Part shown: piece by piece, positions 24,604-35,900 of the stretch
Layout: each line of letters opens with the position of its first letter
Position numbering within the stretch: position 1 is the stretch's first letter
Source of the DNA: Gammaproteobacteria bacterium
GTDB lineage: Bacteria; Pseudomonadota; Gammaproteobacteria; Steroidobacterales; Rariloculaceae
Direction: 5' to 3'
Length of the DNA: 64,000 bases
Assembly: GCA_022820625.1 (NCBI GenBank)
Contig: JAJEFE010000169.1
Span: 1-64,000 of the forward strand
The notes under the pieces: generated by a model
Database searches by the model: none
What the model was told of the DNA's origin: nothing
The model's input: the letters and a program-made list of their open reading frames with translations, nothing else
Translations under genes and position numbers: made by a program

Positions 24604-25419
24604 CTACGTCGGCGGCCGCGCCGACAGGCCATCGAATCCCCGCCGCAGCAGGAAGAGTAAAGCAAAGAACAGCGATGCAACAATAACGATCGCGGGGCCG
24701 GCCGGGACATCGGCAGTCAATGACAGGGACATGCCAAGGGCCACTGAAGCGGCCGCCAGCAGGGCCGACTTGAGCGCCATGCCCTCCGGCGTGGCCGAAA
24801 TCATCCGCGCCGCGGCCGGAGGGATTACCAGCAGCGACACGATCAGGAGGATTCCGACCACCTTCATCCCGACCGCCACCAGCAGGGCCAGCATCAGCAT
24901 CAGCGCGACTCTCGCCGCAGCCGCGCGCACCCCTTCCACGCGAGCCAGTTCCTCGTCGACGGTGACCGACAGCAGCGGCCGCCAGAGGGTCACGATCCCG
25001 ACCCCCAGCGCAAATCCGATCGCCGCAATCACCCGGATGTCGCCCCAGCCGATCGCAAGGACATCGCCGAACAGATAACCCATCAGGTCCACGCGCACGC
25101 CGGGCATCAACGCGATCGCCGCCACTCCGTACGCAAGCGCACTGTGCGCCAGTATGCCCATGACCGTATCGCTGGCCAGCAGGCGCCCGCTCTCCATGAA
25201 GACGACGACCAGCGCGATCGCGATGCATACCGCAATGGTGCCCGCGGTCGGGTCGGCTCCAACGGCGATGCCGAGCGCCGCGCCCAGCAGCGCGGAATGC
25301 GACATCGTGGCGCCGAAGTAAGCCATTCTCCGCCACACTACAAAGCATCCGAGCGGGCCCGCGATCACCGCCACCGACGTGCCGCCGATCAAGGCCCGGA
25401 GAATGAAGTCCTCCATCAT
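24604..25419 (-). CDS. znuB: Zinc/manganese ABC transporter permease ZnuB
   Basis: A 271-residue permease of the ABC-3 family with about eight hydrophobic segments. Family marks include G-C-F-V-V-W-R-R-M-A-Y-F-G near the N-terminus, S-H-S-A-L-L-G-A-A-L-G, and M-K-V-V-G-I-L-L-I-V-S-L-L-V-I-P-P-A-A-A in the second half. The start is one of two adjacent ATGs (25419 or 25416); the first overlaps the znuC stop as ATGA. The longer open frame to 25689 is a shadow of znuC. Together with ZnuC and the divergent ZnuA it imports zinc, or possibly manganese. Confidence 0.88.
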   Translation of the reverse strand: MMEDFILRALIGGTSVAVIAGPLGCFVVWRRMAYFGATMSHSALLGAALGIAVGADPTAGTIAVCIAIALVVVFMESGRLLASDTVMGILAHSALAYGVAAIALMPGVRVDLMGYLFGDVLAIGWGDIRVIAAIGFALGVGIVTLWRPLLSVTVDEELARVEGVRAAAARVALMLMLALLVAVGMKVVGILLIVSLLVIPPAAARMISATPEGMALKSALLAAASVALGMSLSLTADVPAGPAIVIVASLFFALLFLLRRGFDGLSARPPT

Positions 25420-26252
25420 GCGCCGCCGTTGCCCGGCGCCGGCGGGCGAACATCCCGATCGCCGGGTTCGGAAACTACCCGTCCGGAGGCATCGTGCGAA
25501 TGGTCGTGTTGGTGCACGTACAGGGCCAGGGACTCCGCCAGCCGCCGGCCGAACAGGGCCACGAACTCGGGATTGCCGATCACCTCCCTGGGCCGTCCGG
25601 AGCAACAGACGTGATGATTCAGGCAAACCACCGTGTTGGTCGCGGAAATGACTAGGTGCAAATCGTGGGACACCATCAACACGCCGCATCCGCGGCGCCG
25701 GCGAATCGATTCGATGAGTTCGTACAGCCTGACCTGCCCGACGTAGTCCACGCTGCTCAACGGCTCGTCCAGGACCAGGATGTCGGGATCGCGCAGCAGC
25801 GCGCGAGCCAGCGCGACCCGGTTGAATTCTCCGCCCGAAAGCTTCGACATCTGCGCGTGCAGCGTACCGTTCAACTCGACTTCGTCCAGCGCGGCGGCCA
25901 GGCGGCCGTCATCGTAGCGCCCGCCCAGTCTCAGGAACCGCGCCACCGTCATCGGCATGACCGGGTCCATTTTCATGCGCTGCGGCGTGTACCCGATCCG
26001 CAGCCCGGGACGGTGCCACACCGCTCCGGAGTCGACTCGCGTCAGCCCCAGCAGGGCGCGTACCAGGGTGGATTTGCCGCAGCCGTTCAGGCCGACGACG
26101 GTCACCACTTCGCCCCTGTCGACACCGATATCGACATGGTCCAGAATCTGCCGGCCATTGTAGGCCAGACACAGCCCGGTACCGCGCAGCAGCGCATCGT
26201 TGCGCATTGGCGGCCGTTCAGTCCGTTCCGACGGTGCTGGAGGCTTGTCCAT
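25416..26252 (-). CDS. znuC: Zinc ABC transporter ATP-binding protein ZnuC
   Basis: A 278-residue ATPase. Motifs visible in order are Walker A (G-L-N-G-C-G-K-S-T), Q-loop (Y-T-P-Q-R), signature (L-S-G-G-E-F), Walker B (I-L-V-L-D-E-P) and H-loop (V-S-H-D). A His-rich tail (H-Q-H-D-H-S-H-D) near the C-terminus is common in ZnuC and may sense or bind zinc. The start at 26252 gives a ~23-residue N-terminal extension; an internal ATG at 26207 is the alternative. The gene is divergent from znuA and overlaps znuB. Confidence 0.9.
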   Translation of the reverse strand: MDKPPAPSERTERPPMRNDALLRGTGLCLAYNGRQILDHVDIGVDRGEVVTVVGLNGCGKSTLVRALLGLTRVDSGAVWHRPGLRIGYTPQRMKMDPVMPMTVARFLRLGGRYDDGRLAAALDEVELNGTLHAQMSKLSGGEFNRVALARALLRDPDILVLDEPLSSVDYVGQVRLYELIESIRRRRGCGVLMVSHDLHLVISATNTVVCLNHHVCCSGRPREVIGNPEFVALFGRRLAESLALYVHQHDHSHDASGRVVSEPGDRDVRPPAPGNGGA

Positions 26253-26421: not shown

Positions 26422-27360
26422 ATGAGAAGGGCGTGCATGACTTCAGTACTGGCGCTGGGCCTTTCGGCGGTGGCGGGCGTGCCCGCGTCGGAGCCGCCCG
26501 CCGTGGTGGCCAGCATACGGCCGATCCACTCGCTCGCGGCCGGCGTGATGGGCGATCTCGGCGCGCCCGCCCTGATCGTGCGCGGTTACGGCTCGCCCCA
26601 CTTCTACCAGATGCGTCCATCGGAGGCGCGGGCGCTCGCGGGCGCCGACGTGGTTCTGTGGATCGGCGAGCCGCTGGAGACCTTCCTGGCCGGCCCGATC
26701 CGCAACCTGGGCGGAGACGCACGCGTCCTGTCGCTGCTCCAGGCCGACGGTCTGGAGCTGCATCCGGCGCGCACGAGCACCCTCTGGGAAAGCGGGCACG
26801 AGCATGAGCACGATAGCGGGTCGGCGGATCCGCATATCTGGCTGGCGCCCGGGAATGCGAAGGCGATGGTCGATGCGATCGCGCGGGTCCTCGGCGAAGT
26901 CGACCCCGAGCGCGCCGAAATATACGCCGCAAACGGCGCGGCAATGAAATCCAGAATCGATGCGATGACCGCGGACATGGAGGCGCGCCTTTCGCCCGTG
27001 GCCGGCGTCCCGTTCGTCGCGATGCACGATTCGATGCACTATTTCGAGAGCGCATTCAGCCTGCATTCGGTCGGCGCGGTCACGCTGGATCCCGATCGCC
27101 AGCCCAGCGCGGGCAGCGTGCGCGAGTTGAGGGAGCACCTGAGCGCGGGGGGCGTCGTGTGCATGGTAACGGAACCGCAATTCACCCCTGCGCTGATCGA
27201 GGCGCTGGCGTCCGAAAGCCGGCTGACGAGTGCGGAGTTCGATCCGATCGGAGTCGATTCCGATGCGGCCTGGGACAGCTACTTTGCGATGATGACGGGC
27301 AACGCCGACAACCTGGCCCGGTGCCTGGAGCAAGGCCACGGCACGACCGCAGCGTGGTAG
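26422..27360 (+). CDS. znuA: Zinc-binding periplasmic protein ZnuA
   Basis: A 312-residue metal-binding protein (cluster A-I) with an N-terminal signal peptide (S-V-L-A-L-G-L-S-A-V-A-G-V-P-A-S-E). The metal-site residues include the first His in R-P-I-H-S-L-A, G-S-P-H-F-Y-Q-M, D-P-H-I-W-L and the C-terminal E-F-D-P-I-G-V. The His-rich flexible loop is short (H-E-H-E-H-D). The ATG at 26422 is used; the frame opens at 26383. The next gene, encoding a metal permease-SPFH fusion, starts 12 bases after the stop, so znuA is probably the first gene of that operon as well as part of the ZnuABC importer. Confidence 0.88.
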   Translation: MRRACMTSVLALGLSAVAGVPASEPPAVVASIRPIHSLAAGVMGDLGAPALIVRGYGSPHFYQMRPSEARALAGADVVLWIGEPLETFLAGPIRNLGGDARVLSLLQADGLELHPARTSTLWESGHEHEHDSGSADPHIWLAPGNAKAMVDAIARVLGEVDPERAEIYAANGAAMKSRIDAMTADMEARLSPVAGVPFVAMHDSMHYFESAFSLHSVGAVTLDPDRQPSAGSVRELREHLSAGGVVCMVTEPQFTPALIEALASESRLTSAEFDPIGVDSDAAWDSYFAMMTGNADNLARCLEQGHGTTAAW

Positions 27361-27372
27361 TATGACGACAGG

Positions 27373-29736
27373 ATGAATTGGGGAGCGCAATTCGGATCCC
27401 GCCTCGTCGAGGCTGCGGGCCTGTTCCTCGATTTTCTCTGGTTGTCGTTCCTGCTACTGGCGCCCATGCTGCTGCTCGGACTGTTTCTTTCCGGGCTCAT
27501 TCACGTGTTCATTTCCCGGCAAGCGGTCCTGCGCTGGCTCAGGCACGAAAGCCTCAAGTCGGTGACCACCGCTGCGGCGGTCGGCGTGCCGATCCCGCTG
27601 TGCAGTTGCTCGGTCGTGCCGGTGGTCGCGGAAATGCGCCGCAAGGGCGCGTCGCGGTCGTCGTGCATGTCGTTCCTGATCACGGCCCCGGAAACCGGCG
27701 CGGACTCCATCCTGGTAACAAACGCCTTCTTCGGCTGGATCGTCGCGGTCGTGCGGCCGATCGTCAGCTTCATTACCGCGGTTGTCGCAGGCATCTTCTG
27801 CATCGGACTGATACGCGACGACCGCGACGCCGCCGCAGCGCCGGCGGAGGGGGACGGGCACGGGCACGATCATTCCCATGACCATTCCCACGACCACGAT
27901 CACGGCCACGATCACGGCCACGACCACCAGCACAAGAACCTGTTTCCCGGTTCCGAGGACTGTTTCGTCAGCTTCGCTCAATTGAAGGAGATGGCCGCGA
28001 GATGGTTCAGGCGCAGCGCGGCGGCGGTCGGCCAGTGGAGAGCCGTCACCTGGCTGAGGCCGGATTTCTATTACGCCGAGCGCCGCGGGCGCGCGGCGCC
28101 GGAATCCGGCGGCGCCGCATCCGATCCCGCGGAAACGTCCGAACCGGACATCCGGACCGTGGCCCGGCATGTCCTGCGGTACGGGTTCGTCGAGATCGCC
28201 GACGACATCCTGTTCGCGCTGCTGGTGGGCATCCTGATCGGGGGCGTGCTCTACCTGGCCATTCCCAGCGACCTGATGGCCAACGAGTATGCCCGCTGGC
28301 TTGCCTACCCGGTGATGGTGCTGGTCGGCATCCCGCTCTACATCTGCGCCTCCGCCAGCACGCCGATCGCCGCCGCGCTGGTGGCGAAGGGCTTCAGTCC
28401 GGGGGCCGCGCTGGTGTTCCTGATGACCGGCCCGGCCACGAACACCGGCACGATCGCGATCATGCTGAGCCAGTTCGGCGCCCGGTTCGCCTCCGTCTAC
28501 GTCGGCTCGGTCATTCTCGTCACGGTCGTCCTCGGAATCCTCATCGACTCGCTGCTGCTGGCCGGCGGCATTTCGATCTTCGTCAATCTCGGCGCCTCCG
28601 AGTCGCCGGCCATCCTCGCCCTCCAGTACGGCGGCGCAGCGGGCCTGTTCGCGCTCATCGTGTGGCGGTTCCGCGCCGGGGCCATGAAGAGCGGATACGA
28701 GGATCTGATGAGCAACATCCGCCCCCTTTCCCTGCCGTGGCGGCGCGCCTGGAGCCAAATGACCCTGGGACGCCCCCTGGCGGGCGTCTTCTCGCCCGGG
28801 ACGCCGATGGGCAAGACGCTGTGCGCCGTGGTCCTGATCGCGGTCCTGCTCAGCGGCTTCGCCATCGTGCCGCCGCAGTCCGTGGGTTACAGCCGGGTGT
28901 TCGGCAAGGTGGTGAGGCGGGATCTGCCGCCCGGCCTCTACTGGCTCGGCCCACCGCCCATCGTGCAGGTGGACAAGTGGCCGGTACGTGAAATCAAGTC
29001 CTTCCGCACGGCGATCGACAACGAATTCGTCTCCGGAGACCTCAACGTCGCGGTCATCGGACTCGATGTGCAGTACCGGGTCGACGATCCGTACCTGTAT
29101 CACTACCAGACGAATGACGCCGAGGCGGTCCTGAAGGGCGTCGTTCGGGACCGGCTGCGCCAGTTTGTGGGCGCCCGCGGCCTTGAGGACCTGTTCGTGA
29201 CGCAACGCGGGGCGGTCGAGGACTACATCGCGGCGGCGTTCCCGTACGGCGGGCACAGCGAACCGCCGCCGGAGGACGCCGAGCACGAGGAAGTCCTGCA
29301 GGCGGTCGATATCGTGAAGGTGAACCTTCGCTTCATCCGGCCCGCCGCGGAGACCGTGGCCGCCTTCCGCGACGTGTCGAGCGCCCAGGAGGACCGGGAG
29401 CGCGTCATCGTCAATGCGCAGAGTTTCATGGCCCGGCTGGTTCCGCAGGCGCACGGCAATGCGTTCTACGAAGTGCGCCAGGCGGATGGCGACGCCTACG
29501 GGAGAACGATCGCCGCCGGCGCTCAGGCCGGGGCGCTGATGGTCGTTTCCGATGCGGTGAGCGGCGCGCCCTATGTCCTGAGGACCATGTTGTGGCGGGA
29601 GAAGCTGGAAAGCGCCCTGGCAGACAACCCCAAGATCATCGTGCCGAACGGGGACAGCCTGGAGAAGGTGGCGCTATGGAAGAACAGGACGCCGGCGCCC
29701 GCCGGCGCGGCACACGCCGGGGAGAATCGCCCGTGA
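27373..29736 (+). CDS. SO_0444-like metal permease fused to an SPFH/HflK-like domain
   Basis: A 787-residue two-part protein. Residues 1-440 are an SO_0444-like/DUF318 permease. There are two four-helix halves, a Cys signature P-L-C-S-C-S-V-V-P-V near 75-84, C-A-S-A-S-T-P near 325 and G-P-A-T-N-T near 353. A His-rich cytoplasmic loop (residues about 162-187, alternating His/Asp/Gly) joins the halves. After a linker, one more helix (481-500) leads into an SPFH/prohibitin domain (501-about 700: P-P-G-L-Y-W-L-G-P-P, D-V-Q-Y-R-V-D-D-P) with the HflK-type segment V-D-I-V-K-V-N-L-R-F. I know of no characterised protein with this architecture. Permeases of this type are linked to Cu/Zn efflux. It follows znuA by 12 bases and overlaps the next gene by four (GTGA). 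Confidence 0.85.
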   Translation: MNWGAQFGSRLVEAAGLFLDFLWLSFLLLAPMLLLGLFLSGLIHVFISRQAVLRWLRHESLKSVTTAAAVGVPIPLCSCSVVPVVAEMRRKGASRSSCMSFLITAPETGADSILVTNAFFGWIVAVVRPIVSFITAVVAGIFCIGLIRDDRDAAAAPAEGDGHGHDHSHDHSHDHDHGHDHGHDHQHKNLFPGSEDCFVSFAQLKEMAARWFRRSAAAVGQWRAVTWLRPDFYYAERRGRAAPESGGAASDPAETSEPDIRTVARHVLRYGFVEIADDILFALLVGILIGGVLYLAIPSDLMANEYARWLAYPVMVLVGIPLYICASASTPIAAALVAKGFSPGAALVFLMTGPATNTGTIAIMLSQFGARFASVYVGSVILVTVVLGILIDSLLLAGGISIFVNLGASESPAILALQYGGAAGLFALIVWRFRAGAMKSGYEDLMSNIRPLSLPWRRAWSQMTLGRPLAGVFSPGTPMGKTLCAVVLIAVLLSGFAIVPPQSVGYSRVFGKVVRRDLPPGLYWLGPPPIVQVDKWPVREIKSFRTAIDNEFVSGDLNVAVIGLDVQYRVDDPYLYHYQTNDAEAVLKGVVRDRLRQFVGARGLEDLFVTQRGAVEDYIAAAFPYGGHSEPPPEDAEHEEVLQAVDIVKVNLRFIRPAAETVAAFRDVSSAQEDRERVIVNAQSFMARLVPQAHGNAFYEVRQADGDAYGRTIAAGAQAGALMVVSDAVSGAPYVLRTMLWREKLESALADNPKIIVPNGDSLEKVALWKNRTPAPAGAAHAGENRP
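27856..27933 (+). repeat. His-rich tract encoding the metal-binding loop
   Basis: Tandem CAC/CAT-GAC/GAT codons encode alternating His-Asp/Gly/Ser over about 26 residues. It is degenerate at the DNA level (repeats of about six bases) and lies within the permease half of the fusion gene. Such loops bind Zn, Ni or Co in many transporters. Confidence 0.85.
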
Positions 29737-30623
29737 AGAACAAACTTGTCGCCGCGGTTGCCGCGGCCGTCCTGGGTTGGCTGGCCTGGGACAGTTTCTA
29801 CATCATCAACGAGACCGAACGGGGCGTACTGACGCATTTCGGCAGGATCGCGCCGCCCGAACGGCCGCCCGGATTTCATCTCAAGTGGCCCCGGCCGATC
29901 TCCACGATCTACAAGGTGGACTACCGTGTGCAGACCATGGGCAATCTGCCCCACGAACTGATCACGGAAGACCAGAAGAGCGTCCGGGTGGACGGCTACC
30001 TCATGTGGCAGGTGATCGACCCGATCCTGTACGTCGAGGCGATCCGTACCGACGAAAGCGCCCTGGCAAAGCTCCACGACCTGTACCTGTCGGCATTCGG
30101 CGTGGTCATCAGCAACCGGAGCCAGGAAGCGTTCATCAGCCTCGGGCTCGAACACGAGGACGTGGACGAGGCCAGCGAGGAGATACTTGCGCGAATCGCC
30201 CCGATCGCCCGCGACAACTACGGCATCGAGGTGCTCCGGGCCGGCATCGTGGAGTACACGCTGCCTGCGGAGAACCGGCCGAGCATCATTCAGCGCATGA
30301 TTTCCGAGCGGGCGCGCATCGCCACGAAATACCGCAGCGAGGGCGAAGAGGCGGCTATACGGATCGAGGCGCTGGCGATCGAGGAACACGACCGGATCAT
30401 GGCCGACGCCCACGCCGAAGCCACGGTCATTCTGGGCGAGGCCGAAGCCGAGGCGATGGCGCTGCTGGGTCAGGCCTACAGCGACGATCCGGACTTCTAC
30501 ACTTTCATTCGCGCGCTGGACAGCTACGACCTGATCATCGACCGGAACACCACCCTCATGCTGCCGGCGGACAACGAGTTGTTCAGGTACCTGGACAGCA
30601 ACGAAATCCCGGAGCCGGAGTGA
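29733..30623 (+). CDS. HflC-like SPFH membrane protein
   Basis: A 296-residue protein starting at a GTG that overlaps the fusion gene stop (GTGA), with GGGGAGAA upstream. One N-terminal transmembrane helix (V-A-A-V-A-A-A-V-L-G-W-L-A-W) is followed by the SPFH domain (E-T-E-R-G-V-L-T-H-F-G-R, P-P-G-F-H-L-K-W-P). The HflC-type helix I-S-E-R-A-R-I-A-T-K-Y-R-S-E-G-E-E and a C-terminal F-Y-T-F-I-R-A-L-D-S-Y motif complete it. Canonical HflKC caps the FtsH protease. No ftsH, hfq or hflX lies nearby, so this is probably a specialised paralogue acting with the permease fusion. Confidence 0.85.
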   Translation: MKNKLVAAVAAAVLGWLAWDSFYIINETERGVLTHFGRIAPPERPPGFHLKWPRPISTIYKVDYRVQTMGNLPHELITEDQKSVRVDGYLMWQVIDPILYVEAIRTDESALAKLHDLYLSAFGVVISNRSQEAFISLGLEHEDVDEASEEILARIAPIARDNYGIEVLRAGIVEYTLPAENRPSIIQRMISERARIATKYRSEGEEAAIRIEALAIEEHDRIMADAHAEATVILGEAEAEAMALLGQAYSDDPDFYTFIRALDSYDLIIDRNTTLMLPADNELFRYLDSNEIPEPE

Positions 30624-30639
30624 TGCCGGAGATACGCTC

Positions 30640-32070
30640 ATGACGGATCGGCCGGAAGACGGGCGCGGCGGCGGGACGGAGAGCCTGCCGTCCAGCACAC
30701 GGGCGATTTACGCCATCTTCGACTACGTGGCGGCCCACCGGCTGCGCATTGCCTGGGCGGCCGTGGCGGTCGTGGCCGCCGCCATCGTGCTCAACGGGTT
30801 TTACGTGGTCAAGAAGGAAGAGGAGGCCCTGAGAACGCGGTTCGGCCGGGTCGTGGAAGAGAACATCGCCCCGGGCCTGCACTACCGCATCCCGGTGATC
30901 GAGCGGGCCTGGATTCGCCCGGTGCATCGCATCGCCGAACATTCGGTGTCCAGCCGCCGGGACGGCCAGGAAATGTTCACCATCCTGTCGGGCGACCAGA
31001 ACCTGCTGGAGGTGACCGTCGCCATCCAGTACCGCATCGACCATCTGCGCAATTACCTGTTCGCGACGCCCGATCCCATAGGCCACCTGACCAAGTTGAC
31101 CCGGCAGGAACTGGTGAGCATCCTCGGCCAGAATTTCATCGACCTGATCCTCAGCCTCAACCGGAACATCATCCAGGATCATCTTTTCGACGAAATAACC
31201 GAGTCGCTGGAGTTGCACGATGTCGGCGTGGAGCTCGTGGCGCTGAATATTGTCGACGTACGCCCCATCGACGAAACGCGCGCGGCGTTCCGCGACGTCA
31301 CCGACGCGATTTCCGAGCGCAACGAGGCCATCAGCAACGCCAATCTCCGGTCGGAGCGAATGCTCTCCCGGTCGCGCGGCCAGGCCGAAGCGGTGGTTCG
31401 CGAAGCCCAGGCCAGGGCGCACGAGCGCGTGGCTCAGGCCGGCAGCAGCGCCAGCGCCTTCCTGATGCTCCTGGATGAATACAACCGGGACCGGGAGCAG
31501 GTCGCGATCACCCGCTACTGGCAGCGCATGCGCACGATCTTCAACGAAGCCAGCCTCGCCGCAGTCAATCCCGCGGCCGACTCGGTCATCGACGTCAACA
31601 TGATCGATGGCGTCGCCGCCGTGCCGCCGTTGAGCATGCCAGCGCCAGCCCCCTTTGCGGCCAGCGGGGCGCCGTCCAGGCCGTTGACCGCGTTCACGGC
31701 GCCCGAGACCGCGCACGCCATGGAATCGGCGGATGTCGACCGCTTCCTGTCGCTCGGGGCCTGGCACGAACGCACGGCCGAGCGCGACGACCTGATGGCG
31801 GGCCGTCCGCGGTCGCTAATATTCGACACGCCCGCGATCTTCGCTCATGGGGAAGTGGTGCCGAGCGGCGCCGTCGCCGCCCAGCAGCAGGTGCTGCAGC
31901 CGATGGTCGACACGCTCGCGGAAGACATGGACGCCGAAACGCCGGCGTCGGAGCCTGTCGCGGTTCCGGCGACGGCCGGGACCGATTCAGGGGTACCCGC
32001 CGCCGCGCCGAGCCCGCCCGCTGCGGCGCCGGACCCGCCCGCCGCAGCGGAAGCGCCGGCTGACGAGTAG
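30640..32070 (+). CDS. HflK-like SPFH membrane protein with Pro/Ala-rich tail
   Basis: A 476-residue protein, 16 bases after the HflC-like gene. A short cytoplasmic N-terminus and one transmembrane helix (about 38-58) are followed by the SPFH domain (E-E-E-A-L-R-T-R-F-G-R-V, A-P-G-L-H-Y-R-I-P). The HflK marks are V-T-V-A-I-Q-Y-R-I, F-R-D-V-T-D-A-I-S-E-R-N-E-A and R-G-Q-A-E-A-V-V-R-E-A-Q-A-R-A. Residues after about 330 form a low-complexity Ala/Pro/Glu tail not present in ordinary HflK (about 420 residues). The same operon has an HflC-like partner and an SPFH domain on the permease, so up to three SPFH subunits could co-assemble. Confidence 0.85.
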   Translation: MTDRPEDGRGGGTESLPSSTRAIYAIFDYVAAHRLRIAWAAVAVVAAAIVLNGFYVVKKEEEALRTRFGRVVEENIAPGLHYRIPVIERAWIRPVHRIAEHSVSSRRDGQEMFTILSGDQNLLEVTVAIQYRIDHLRNYLFATPDPIGHLTKLTRQELVSILGQNFIDLILSLNRNIIQDHLFDEITESLELHDVGVELVALNIVDVRPIDETRAAFRDVTDAISERNEAISNANLRSERMLSRSRGQAEAVVREAQARAHERVAQAGSSASAFLMLLDEYNRDREQVAITRYWQRMRTIFNEASLAAVNPAADSVIDVNMIDGVAAVPPLSMPAPAPFAASGAPSRPLTAFTAPETAHAMESADVDRFLSLGAWHERTAERDDLMAGRPRSLIFDTPAIFAHGEVVPSGAVAAQQQVLQPMVDTLAEDMDAETPASEPVAVPATAGTDSGVPAAAPSPPAAAPDPPAAAEAPADE

Positions 32071-32083
32071 GGGGGAAACCGGC

Positions 32084-33220
32084 ATGAACAGAATGGTTGC
32101 ACTGATTGTGCTCACCTCGTCGTCATTGCTTGCCAACGCCACCGGCGTGCACGACGACCGGATCGTGTTCGGCCAGAGCGCGGTATTCTCCGGTCCGAAC
32201 CGCAACCTGGGGCTGCAATACCGGGCGGGCCTGCTGGCCGCCTTCGCGGAGCGCAACGCCACGGGCGGCGTGGCCGGCAGGGCGCTGGAAGTGATCAGCC
32301 TGGACGACGGTTACGAACCCGACCAGGCCGCCGCCAACGCGGAGCGATTCGTTGCGGGAAACGACGTGTTCGCAGTGATCGGCGCAGTCGGCACACCGAC
32401 TTCCCGCCGCATCGCGCCGATCCTGCGCACCGCCGAAATTCCCTTCGTGGGGCCCTTCACGGGCACGGATTTCCTGCGCGATACTGCACGTTATCCGTAC
32501 ATCGTCAACCTGCGAACCGGCTACCTGCAGGAAATCGAGGTACTGGTCGACCACATGCTGCTCGATCGCGGCGTGACGCGTTTCGGCGTCATCTACCAGG
32601 ACGATGCCTTCGGCCGCACGGTGCTCGCCAACTACAAGACGGTCCTGGACCGGCACGATATACCGATACTCGCCAAGGCGTCGTACACGCGCAACTCGCA
32701 CGCCGTGCACTCGGCGCTCTTCTCGCTGGAAAAGGCGGATCTTGAAGCGATCCTGATCGTCGGTTCCTATGCCGCCGGCGCGGAGATCATCAACCTGGCG
32801 AATTCGCTCGGGCACACCTACATCATGGCAAGCCTTTCGTTCGCCCCCTCGCACGAATTGACCCGGGAGATCGCGGAACCGAGTCCGCGGATCATCATGA
32901 CCGAGGTGATGCCAAGCGTGCGCGATCCGGACCTTGAGTTGGTCAGGAGCTTTCATGGCGCGATGGCGGCGATGCCCGGCGATGCGCTCGAAGGCCAGAC
33001 GCCGCACGAAGTCGCCCTGGAAGGCTATATTCTGGGCCGCTTCGTCATTTCCGTGCTCGAGCGCATGGAGGACGAGTGGACGCGCGACGCCTTCGTGGCC
33101 ACGGCGCTTTCGGCGGAACCGGTGCGGATCGACGATTGGGAACTCGTATTCGAACCGGGGTCGAGCACGGGCACCGACTTCATTCGGCTCATCGATTTCG
33201 GTTCGATCGGGGAAGAGTAG
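32084..33220 (+). CDS. Periplasmic ligand-binding protein (Peripla_BP_6, Leu/Ile/Val-binding type)
   Basis: A 378-residue secreted protein with a signal peptide (M-V-A-L-I-V-L-T-S-S-S-L-L-A-N-A) and GGGGGAAACC before the ATG. The type I fold is visible from I-V-F-G-Q-S-A-V-F-S-G, then G-R-A-L-E-V-I-S-L-D-D-G-Y-E-P and F-V-A-G-N-D-V-F-A-V-I-G-A-V-G-T-P-T-S, followed by R-F-G-V-I-Y-Q-D-D-A-F-G-R. No LivHMGF-type transporter genes are present, so it is orphaned. It lies 13 bases after the HflK-like gene. It may act as a sensor for the membrane complex rather than a transport receptor. Ligand unknown. Confidence 0.8.
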   Translation: MNRMVALIVLTSSSLLANATGVHDDRIVFGQSAVFSGPNRNLGLQYRAGLLAAFAERNATGGVAGRALEVISLDDGYEPDQAAANAERFVAGNDVFAVIGAVGTPTSRRIAPILRTAEIPFVGPFTGTDFLRDTARYPYIVNLRTGYLQEIEVLVDHMLLDRGVTRFGVIYQDDAFGRTVLANYKTVLDRHDIPILAKASYTRNSHAVHSALFSLEKADLEAILIVGSYAAGAEIINLANSLGHTYIMASLSFAPSHELTREIAEPSPRIIMTEVMPSVRDPDLELVRSFHGAMAAMPGDALEGQTPHEVALEGYILGRFVISVLERMEDEWTRDAFVATALSAEPVRIDDWELVFEPGSSTGTDFIRLIDFGSIGEE

Positions 33221-33223
33221 CTC

Positions 33224-33712
33224 TTGAAAAAGGTAGACCAGTTTTCCAGGGAAGAGACCGGCGAGGAGTGGTTGCGGGAGCTCTACAAGGTCGTCGCCCG
33301 GCGGCGCGGCGTGATGTTCCGCCTGATCGATCAGTCCGCAAGGATGCTGCTGATCGGGAACGCCGGCGGTGCGGCGCTGATCGTCGGATTCATGAGCGCG
33401 GCCCCCGGTAGCCAGGACACCCCGTATCACTGGTTCGCACTGGCCATCCTGGCGATCTTCGGTACGGGAATACTGACCTCGTCCCTGACCACCGTGCTGG
33501 TCGCCCTGATCGCCGTCAAGGAAGCGCATGGCGCCGAGACCGGCCTCAAACAGTTCGTCGATGGCGAAATAGACCGGTCGGAAGTGCTGTTCGTGGTGGA
33601 TGAGCAGGGCTTTCGCCTGGCCGACTTCGCCACGTTGCTGGGGGCAGTGAGCGTGGGAACATTCCTGGCTGGCGGACTGGCGAGCATCGTGATGCTGATG
33701 CTCTTCTTCTGA
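33224..33712 (+). CDS. Three-helix membrane protein, last gene of the permease-SPFH operon
   Basis: A 162-residue protein starting at a TTG three bases after the previous stop, with GGGGAAGAG upstream inside that gene. It has a charged cytoplasmic N-terminus (residues 1-40), two helices (about 42-58 and 68-97), a polar segment with V-D-G-E-I-D-R-S-E-V-L-F-V-V-D-E, and a third helix (about 137-160). I do not recognise a family. Its position and tight spacing tie it to the upstream binding protein and SPFH genes. Confidence 0.7.
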   Translation: MKKVDQFSREETGEEWLRELYKVVARRRGVMFRLIDQSARMLLIGNAGGAALIVGFMSAAPGSQDTPYHWFALAILAIFGTGILTSSLTTVLVALIAVKEAHGAETGLKQFVDGEIDRSEVLFVVDEQGFRLADFATLLGAVSVGTFLAGGLASIVMLMLFF

Positions 33713-33820: not shown

Positions 33821-35068
33821 ATGAGCAAGCCGGTGGCGGGTTTCGTACCAAAACCGATGAAGATAAGCGTACTGACAGCGGCGTTGCAGGAACTGACGCC
33901 CCGTGAAAAGCGCGATCCCGACCCGGACCTGGCGGTCGAGGAGTGGCTGCAGTTCTCCAGGGATATCGGGTCGCCCTACATCGAGTTGTCGACGGCGCTT
34001 CACCCGAGCGTCAGCGACGTCCCGGCCGAAGCCATGCTGGACCCGGTCGCCAACACGCTGGACCTGCGGGAGCCCTTCGACGGCAGAAGAGCCGCGCGCG
34101 TAAAGGCGGCGATGAGGGAAACCGGTGTCGGGCTGTCGGACCTGGCCTATTTCGACAACATGCTGGTCGCCGACGACGGAGCCCGCCGTGTCAAGCACGA
34201 ATTCATGCTGCGCGTATTCGATGCGGCCGTGCTGCTGGAGACCGACGCGGTGTGCGGATTCGTCGGCCGCAACTACGACCTTGAGATGGATCCCAATCTC
34301 GAGATGTTCGAGCAGGTATTCATCCCGCTGCTGAAGGAGGCGAAGGCGCGTGGGCTGACGTACCGTGTGGAGCAATGCCCGATGCCGGGATGGACGCCCC
34401 TGGACCGGTGGCACAACAACATTGCCTACGCGCCGGGACCGTGGATTGCGCTGCACCGCATCTGCGAGAAACACGGCGTGGGCGATCAGTTCCGGATTCA
34501 CTACGATCCGTCCCACTCCGTCCTGATGGGGCAGGATACGCGCTCGATGTTCCAGTACCTCAAGGACGAGGGCTACAACTTTCTGATCGACGCCTTTCAC
34601 GTGAAAGGACAAGTGGTCGATTCCGTAGGCGTGTCCGCTTGGGGATACGGGGGGCAAACGATGCAACGCGGCGACTGGACAGGCGATGCCCCGTCGGACA
34701 ACCCGGCAGACCAGCTCAACGCCTGGAAGAAGCAGGTCACCCTGTGCGAGCACGAACTGCCGGGTACCGCGCGGCACGATCCGCTGGCGTACCTGCAGAA
34801 CCGCACCGTCGACTGGCTCGATCACCAGTTGGCGGCCCGCGAGCTGCTCGATATCGATCCGGCCGAAACCTACTTGGTGGTGGAGCACGAGTATCCGCCT
34901 GCCAGGATCCAGGACAAGGACGAACTGGCGCCGATTCTCGAAGGCTCCGTCGCCTTTACCAAAGCCATCGACGAGGCTGCGGCCGCCATGTACGCGCTGC
35001 AGAACGAGGTGATGGCGTCTCAGGGAATTCCCGTACAGGGTGTCGGACGGGAAGCGTACCGGTCTTAG
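33821..35068 (+). CDS. Sugar phosphate isomerase/epimerase-like TIM-barrel protein
   Basis: A 415-residue cytoplasmic protein with a strong ribosome binding site (AAGGAGATGTCCC). It fits the AP-endonuclease-2/xylose-isomerase-like family. The metal-site pattern is spread through the segments [21 protein letters not shown] and D-A-F-H-V-K-G. It is longer than the usual 280-300 residues owing to inserts and a C-terminal helical region. It sits at the edge of a sugar-oxidation cluster and converges on a second isomerase gene, one base apart. Such enzymes isomerise or epimerise keto-sugars. Confidence 0.8.
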
Positions 35069-35069
35069 G

Positions 35070-35900
35070 TCACGCCCGATTCAGCATCTGCTCCAGGGCG
35101 GCATAACTGCGCCGGATCGTCGTTTCCGGGTCCGGCGAGTCGTCGCGTTCGACAAAGGCGTAACGAACGCCGGTGTCGTCACGGTCGAGAAGCGCCGCGA
35201 AGTCGATGACGCCATCGCCCACGTCGGCCATCTCGCCCCGGGTATCCATGTCCTTGACATGCCATAGCGTAAACCGGCCGGGATAGCGCTCGAAGTATTC
35301 CAGTTCCGAACGCCCCCCGGCGCGAATCCAGTACAGATCGAGCTCGAACTCCACGAGCGCCGGGTCCGTCTCGTCCAGCAGCACGTCGTACGGAACGCCG
35401 CCGTCGGTCAATGCGAACTCGAAATCGTGATTATGGTAGGCGAACCGCAGGCCGGCCCGATCGCAGACCTCGCCAAAGGCGTTTAACTGCTCGGCCAGAC
35501 GATGGTAGCCATCCAGGGTGGCGCGTGATTCTGGAGCGAGCCAGGGCACGACAAGGTATCGATGTCCCAGGGTCAACGCCGACTCGATAGCGGCGTCCGG
35601 ATTATCCGACATGGCCTCCAGAGAAACGTGCGCGGCCGGCGCCGCGAGGCCCATGTCGTCGAGCATGAGCCTCAACTCTCCGGCCGGACGGCCGAAGTAG
35701 CCCGCGAACTCGACGTGCCGGTAACCGGCGTCGGCGACGAGCGCCAGCGCCGAGGGCACATCGTCCTGCATCAGCTGGCGGATCGTGTAAAGCTGAAGCC
35801 CCGGGCTGAGTCCGGAGCCGCCGTTGTCCTGAGCCCGCAACGGCAGGGCGCCTCCAAGACCGGCCGCCAGCGCACCTGCAACAAAACCCCTCCGATTCAT
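35070..35900 (-). CDS. Periplasmic sugar isomerase/epimerase-like protein with Tat-type signal
   Basis: A 276-residue protein beginning M-N-R-R-G-F-V-A-G-A-L-A-A-G-L-G-G, an Arg-Arg export signal. The mature part is a TIM-barrel of the AP-endonuclease-2 family: L-Q-L-Y-T-I-R-Q-L-M, G-Y-R-H-V-E-F-A-G-Y-F-G, F-A-Y-H-N-H-D-F-E-F and D-L-Y-W-I-R-A-G-G. The H-N-H-D-F-E segment and later W-H-V-K-D-M-D supply metal ligands. The final helix (Y-A-A-L-E-Q-M-L) is standard. It could process keto-sugars made in the periplasm. Confidence 0.82.
   Translation of the reverse strand: MNRRGFVAGALAAGLGGALPLRAQDNGGSGLSPGLQLYTIRQLMQDDVPSALALVADAGYRHVEFAGYFGRPAGELRLMLDDMGLAAPAAHVSLEAMSDNPDAAIESALTLGHRYLVVPWLAPESRATLDGYHRLAEQLNAFGEVCDRAGLRFAYHNHDFEFALTDGGVPYDVLLDETDPALVEFELDLYWIRAGGRSELEYFERYPGRFTLWHVKDMDTRGEMADVGDGVIDFAALLDRDDTGVRYAFVERDDSPDPETTIRRSYAALEQMLNRA

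Follow-up and report, generated by a model that had tools for sequence, protein, structure and literature searches.

Background

Which clients the SPFH rings of bacteria contain, and for what purpose, is largely an open question; their deletion has weak phenotypes, and among bacterial clients FtsH is the main one established by structural work. In this work we analyzed a stretch of DNA of 64,000 nucleotides (positions 1 to 64,000 of contig JAJEFE010000169.1, assembly GCA_022820625.1, from a gammaproteobacterium of the Rariloculaceae), hereafter the window, in which a metal permease of the SO_0444 family and an HflK-like SPFH domain are encoded in one gene, followed by two further SPFH genes, a gene for a periplasmic binding protein and a gene for a small membrane protein. 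With a probability of roughly 60%, we consider this operon a variant form within a class of metal-transport operons that have three SPFH genes: its transporter would be a covalent part of a ring resembling HflKC and would act in zinc homeostasis when the metal is limiting.

The fused gene and its operon

The fusion gene (27373-29736, forward strand, as are the four genes that follow it) encodes 787 residues without an internal stop. Residues 27-391 (27451-28545) match the Pfam family ArsP_1 (PF03773, E 4.5e-49), and the protein scores 325.4 bits against the model of the SO_0444 family Cu/Zn efflux transporters (NF033936), above the cut-off of 300. The permease motifs PLCSCSVVP, YICASASTP and GPATNT are invariant in an alignment of seven sequences, and a loop rich in histidine and aspartate (approximately residues 157-191, 27841-27945), which is probably cytoplasmic, is His-rich in all seven aligned relatives. 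The HflK-like SPFH domain occupies residues 498-683 (28864-29421; Band_7, PF01145, E 1.3e-13) and is followed by a long helix that extends to about residue 749. An extra transmembrane helix (residues 482-500, 28816-28872) was recognised by hydropathy and charge, with a linker rich in lysine and arginine before it; from this linker and helix, the SPFH domain of the fusion is predicted to face the periplasm as in HflK.

An AlphaFold model of the fusion, made from an alignment that left out one row from a plasmid record, has a predicted local distance difference test score (pLDDT) of 75.7 and a predicted template modelling score of 0.55. The extra helix spans residues 478-493 in this model, and the His/Asp-rich loop has low pLDDT. 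The closest solved structure is HflK (7vhq_E, Foldseek E 6.8e-11), and the layout of the HflK type, i.e. an SPFH fold after one transmembrane helix and then a long C-terminal helix, can be recognised in the model, whose quality is moderate.

The gene for the HflC-like protein HflC2 (29733-30623, GTG start) overlaps the fusion gene by 4 nucleotides, and those for the HflK-like protein HflK2 (30640-32070), an orphan periplasmic binding protein of the Leu/Ile/Val type (32084-33220; Peripla_BP_6, PF13458, E 1.6e-44; nearest solved chains 4kv7 and 3lop) and the three-helix membrane protein TM3 (33224-33712, TTG start, 162 residues) follow after gaps of 16, 13 and 3 nucleotides, respectively. Three consecutive genes thus encode SPFH proteins in the order HflK-like, HflC-like, HflK-like. 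HflC2 scores 156.4 bits against TIGR01932, above the cut-off of 134.4, yet it falls outside the canonical HflC rows in both trees described below. HflK2 carries a long C-terminal tail with an RSLIF motif that is conserved in the alignment. TM3 matches no family of Pfam, NCBIfam or PHROG and no fold at E<=0.001, and it is present at all loci of the system. The initial annotation is therefore borne out by the coordinates and by the Pfam and NCBIfam matches in three respects: an SO_0444-like permease and an HflK-like SPFH domain share one 787-residue frame; the CSCS and GPATNT motifs and the His-rich loop are present and kept in relatives; and the HflC-like, HflK-like, Peripla_BP_6 and three-helix genes follow the fusion with an overlap or short gaps. 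The case for the observation is indeed stronger than that annotation made it.

Recurrence and origin of the five-gene set

Fourteen genomes carry the complete set of five genes, at 15 loci in all and with an unchanged gene order; two more loci are cut by contig ends. The order is fixed across two separate bacterial groups, one of which includes metagenome-assembled genomes (MAGs) named Alphaproteobacteria. The fusion occurs in five of 196 genomes of the same order as the window's genome, which is itself one of the five, and in none of 368 other genomes drawn from the class; three more carriers, titled Alphaproteobacteria, Pseudomonadales and Defluviicoccus, came from a scan of GTDB contigs. 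Sequence identity to the window protein drops as low as 57-58%. The alternative arrangement, in which permease and SPFH recur as separate genes with no conserved neighbourhood, was looked for and not seen; the nearest unfused permease, described below, has no SPFH neighbour. TM3 is an excellent marker of the set, since it was found in one of 398 genomes drawn from the phylum (the window's own) and in five of 396 from the order; it is also present in four of 11 genomes of the family of genome G938 and in five of 27 of the order of genome G940. One MAG, G940, carries two complete copies of the fusion and a third that is truncated by a contig end (L088, L089, L090). A 703-residue open frame in genome G158, which resembled another fusion, was rejected because it is really a permease of 397 residues.

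All 15 fused permeases cluster in a single clade of the permease tree (support 100/98), which is most simply read as the result of one fusion event. The sister of this clade is an unfused permease of 419 residues (genome G939, L087) that ends at the junction; its gene lies in the vicinity of rnc-era-recO and is not accompanied by an SPFH gene. A tree of 106 SPFH domains places the fused domain, HflC2 and HflK2 in three separate clades (100/100 each), apart from the canonical HflK and HflC. The window's genome retains canonical hflK and hflC elsewhere, on contig C3.

Linkage to zinc uptake genes

Of the 15 complete loci, 11 have genes of the zinc ATP-binding cassette (ABC) transporter ZnuABC next to the operon, arranged in three ways. 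In the first (the window and L064), znuA lies upstream on the same strand and znuCB diverges; in the second (L088, L089, L091, L105, L106, L108), the znu genes are convergent downstream; in the third, znuA is divergent upstream, and L092 has in addition znuCB convergent downstream, while at L093 and L094 znuA alone was seen. A linkage that persists through such rearrangements speaks for a shared function. At the eight loci tested in the alphaproteobacterial group, Zur-like palindromes were found upstream of znuA in all eight (shuffle P <=0.04) and upstream of the fusion in seven (shuffle P <=0.023); the motif was picked from prior knowledge and the gene starts are approximate.

In the window, the znuA-like gene (26422-27360, forward strand, start codon inferred; PF01297, E 7.7e-62) encodes a zinc-binding protein with a His-rich loop and ends 12 nucleotides before the fusion starts. 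Diverging from the operon on the reverse strand are the znuC-like ATPase gene (25416-26207) and the znuB-like permease gene (24604-25419; PF00950, E 6.5e-62), whose products have ZnuC (276.3 bits, cut-off 306) and ZnuB (224.9 bits, cut-off 284) as their top NCBIfam models, in both cases below the cut-off. The initial annotation does not mention these znu genes. After the operon there are two open reading frames (33821-35068, forward; 35070-35900, reverse) that, judged by eye, resemble sugar isomerases/epimerases and are probably unrelated to it.

Other operons with three SPFH genes

A precedent for three SPFH genes beside a metal transporter exists in Pseudomonas aeruginosa. The operon PA2439-PA2434 encodes HflK, HflC and an HflC-family protein together with the Zn/Cu-importing ATPase HmtA. 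Zinc depletion induces this operon (PMC4542158) and raises the levels of its proteins (PMC11761036), and Zur binds its promoter (PMC8531726). A 2026 survey noted in strain PA14 a three-SPFH operon, paFlo5-7 (PMC13086221), which, from the locus numbering (PA14_33070/33080/33110), is probably the hmtA locus.

A search of plasmids with HflC2 revealed further operons of this kind. In a plasmid of Aquibium oceanicum the first gene fuses a zinc-type cation diffusion facilitator (CDF) transporter (PF01545, residues 8-198) to an SPFH domain (residues 243-414), and it is followed by genes for HflC, HflK, a peptidylprolyl isomerase, a heavy-metal P-type (P1B) ATPase and copper chaperones. The CDF-SPFH, HflC and HflK set is also present in two gammaproteobacterial genomes (G104, G221). 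The CDF-SPFH fusions (L147:7367-8914; L140:7866-9722; L139:27-1847) are encoded by the first gene of a triad of the HflK-HflC-HflK type, and each of the three proteins keeps HxxxD at both metal-site helices. The arrangement of the window is therefore not a one-off. A literature search for CDF-SPFH-HflK proteins, mostly without reach into subscription journals, found no paper describing them.

Triads with a P-type ATPase were found in plasmids of Rhizobium, Klebsiella aerogenes, Burkholderia ubonensis and Paraburkholderia sprentiae and in a MAG of the Planctomycetota, in the order HflK-like SPFH, HflC, third SPFH, P-type ATPase. These HmtA-type operons (L061:7050-13049, Planctomycetota; L148, L185, L186 and L187, plasmids) share with the window and with L147 the HflK-like/HflC-like/HflK-like layout. 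The first SPFH protein has a polytopic N-terminal region in the two cases examined, L061 and L148; that of L148 matched no Pfam family. The third SPFH protein of L061 has a very His-rich N-terminus, and a zinc ABC transporter is encoded 3-6 kb upstream of the Paraburkholderia copy. No P-type ATPase was matched in the 64-kb window or at the loci of the system, where the fused permease is found instead.

The HflC proteins of all triads lie on one side of a branch in both SPFH trees (99/90 in the first; 92/81 in the second, which included more triads), neither of which contained a P. aeruginosa sequence. Since they group together in two trees, a common ancestry of these proteins is likely, although not proven. 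Two-gene HflKC paralogues beside the NhaA antiporter were also observed in plasmids of Vibrio and Paracoccus (L150, L155); their HflC proteins form a separate clade, and they were rejected as members of the same type.

Discussion

Taken by analogy with the known SPFH cages, a caged transporter, which the initial annotation pictured as enclosed in its own membrane microdomain, is a plausible reading of the permease-SPFH fusion. The fusion, HflC2 and HflK2 would co-assemble into a periplasmic ring of the HflKC type, with the permease copies held at or inside its base and so kept apart from free lipid, perhaps also from FtsH. A small periplasmic chamber may be formed by the ring that presents zinc to the permease, while the cytoplasmic His-rich loop could buffer the ion or hand it over; the Peripla_BP_6 protein and TM3 would play accessory roles, in sensing or gating. 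Under zinc scarcity the whole unit would be co-expressed with ZnuABC, zinc uptake or retention being its most likely role. Zinc is the likeliest substrate of the fused permease, and uptake or retention is favoured because of the znu linkage and because HmtA is an importer.

Several observations weigh against this proposal. The direction of transport is its least certain step, since the studied unfused member of the family is a Cu/Zn exporter. The two HflK-like proteins score below the cut-off of 159.4 bits of the HflK model TIGR01933 (114.3 bits for the fusion and 144.3 for HflK2), and the structure of the fusion is a model of moderate quality. Four complete loci have no znu gene inside the fetched flanks. 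No Zur-like site was found in the window, the znuA/znuC intergenic region included, or at the other gammaproteobacterial loci. In the window's genome, which is 95% complete, a Zur protein was not found. It has one gene of the FUR family, beside bamE- and recN-like genes, and fur usually sits beside genes of these types; Zur control is therefore unsupported in this organism, because the only FUR-family gene lies in the usual position of fur.

The alternative that survives best, although we consider it unlikely, is that the fused permease keeps the role of its family, i.e. export of zinc or copper, with the ring confining the exporter so that it works as a safety valve or gives metal back to a pool in the periplasm near ZnuA. 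The score above the SO_0444 cut-off and the intact motifs are consistent with it, and a further point against uptake is that SO_0444 of Shewanella oneidensis is known from mutant fitness as an exporter required when Zn or Cu is in excess (PMC3219624); CDF transporters, the partner in the second fusion, likewise usually work as exporters. On the other hand, the lasting linkage to znuABC and, in the alphaproteobacterial relatives, the occurrence of Zur-like sites at both the fusion and znuA argue for expression during zinc starvation, and the best characterised triad, that of hmtA, goes with an importer.

Somewhat less probable still is that the SPFH trio are HflKC paralogues that control FtsH proteolysis, and that the fusion tethers the permease for protection or degradation according to zinc status. 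All three proteins are of the HflK/HflC type; in E. coli, HflK and HflC build a cage of 12 heterodimers that encloses FtsH (PMC12005517), which is in turn a zinc enzyme (PMC9020784). In contrast, the trio stands well apart from the canonical HflK and HflC, both of which the genome keeps, and no ftsH gene was recognised in the operon. An ordinary fusion of neighbouring genes with little functional consequence is very improbable: the permease domain does occur unfused, but the fusion is kept in 15 of 15 complete loci, even at identities as low as about 55-58%, and a second, unrelated family of metal transporters is fused at the same position in the same type of operon. Finally, an assembly error joining two genes near 28813 is excluded, its probability being negligible: nothing was found in its favour, and independent assemblies contain 14 further full-length fused copies with the identical junction, one of them on a single contig of 3.1 Mb (genome G424).

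Taken together, the fusion, its recurrence beside zinc uptake genes and the CDF fusion suggest that SPFH cages serve as housing for metal transporters. Where the transporter is itself part of an SPFH subunit, at least one SPFH client is no longer in doubt, and the same arrangement in two unrelated families of metal transporters suggests a rule. The fusion also suggests how the SPFH genes of the Zur-regulated hmtA operon in P. aeruginosa, so far unexplained, might be understood, and its operon represents a defined complex for structural and transport work. Whether these cases form a general bacterial class of SPFH-caged metal transporters we regard as an even proposition; in such a class one three-SPFH scaffold would be combined with an SO_0444 permease, a CDF transporter or a P1B ATPase, fused to the first SPFH protein in at least two cases to give a covalent zinc/copper chamber.

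Comparison with known systems

The nearest solved fold is that of HflK-HflC, with which the window proteins share the SPFH domain, the N-terminal transmembrane helix and the long helical C-terminal part; they differ from it in forming distinct clades, in comprising three SPFH genes and not two, and in the fused transporter, while the canonical pair is kept separately. The window permease scores above the curated cut-off of the SO_0444 family and has the same Cys motifs, whereas the studied member stands alone under a ZntR-like regulator and that of the window is joined to an SPFH domain and encoded next to genes for zinc uptake. An SPFH ring that encloses a transporter in a membrane patch has been solved for human stomatin, whose dome surrounds aquaporin-1 and UT-B (PMC12407830); the window system, known from its genes and from a single-protein model, would resemble it in this respect, but the stomatin dome is eukaryotic and non-covalent, and its transporters are unrelated. 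In the clusters of flotillin-associated rhodopsins (PMC10308929) a membrane protein of the transporter type is likewise consistently encoded beside an SPFH gene, although there the genes are separate, the SPFH protein is a flotillin and not of the HflK type, and there is no link to metals. The CDF-SPFH operons also have a metal transporter fused to an HflK-like SPFH domain as the first gene, with HflC and HflK after it; their transporter belongs to an unrelated family (PF01545), and neither TM3 nor Peripla_BP_6 was seen in them.

The hmtA operon, compared by annotation and not by sequence, likewise combines three SPFH proteins of the HflK/HflC type with an inner-membrane Zn/Cu transporter, but in this case the transporter is a separate P-type ATPase, and an SO_0444 permease, TM3 and Peripla_BP_6 are not listed. 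The statement of the initial annotation that it knew of no described system of this form holds only in part, given that this Zur-controlled operon already pairs three SPFH proteins with a metal importer. The papers on the hmtA operon (PMC4542158, PMC8531726, PMC11761036) make no mention of a fusion. Beside the known three-SPFH metal operons, the notable part of the system described here is the covalent link between transporter and SPFH domain, which is found in two families of transporters.

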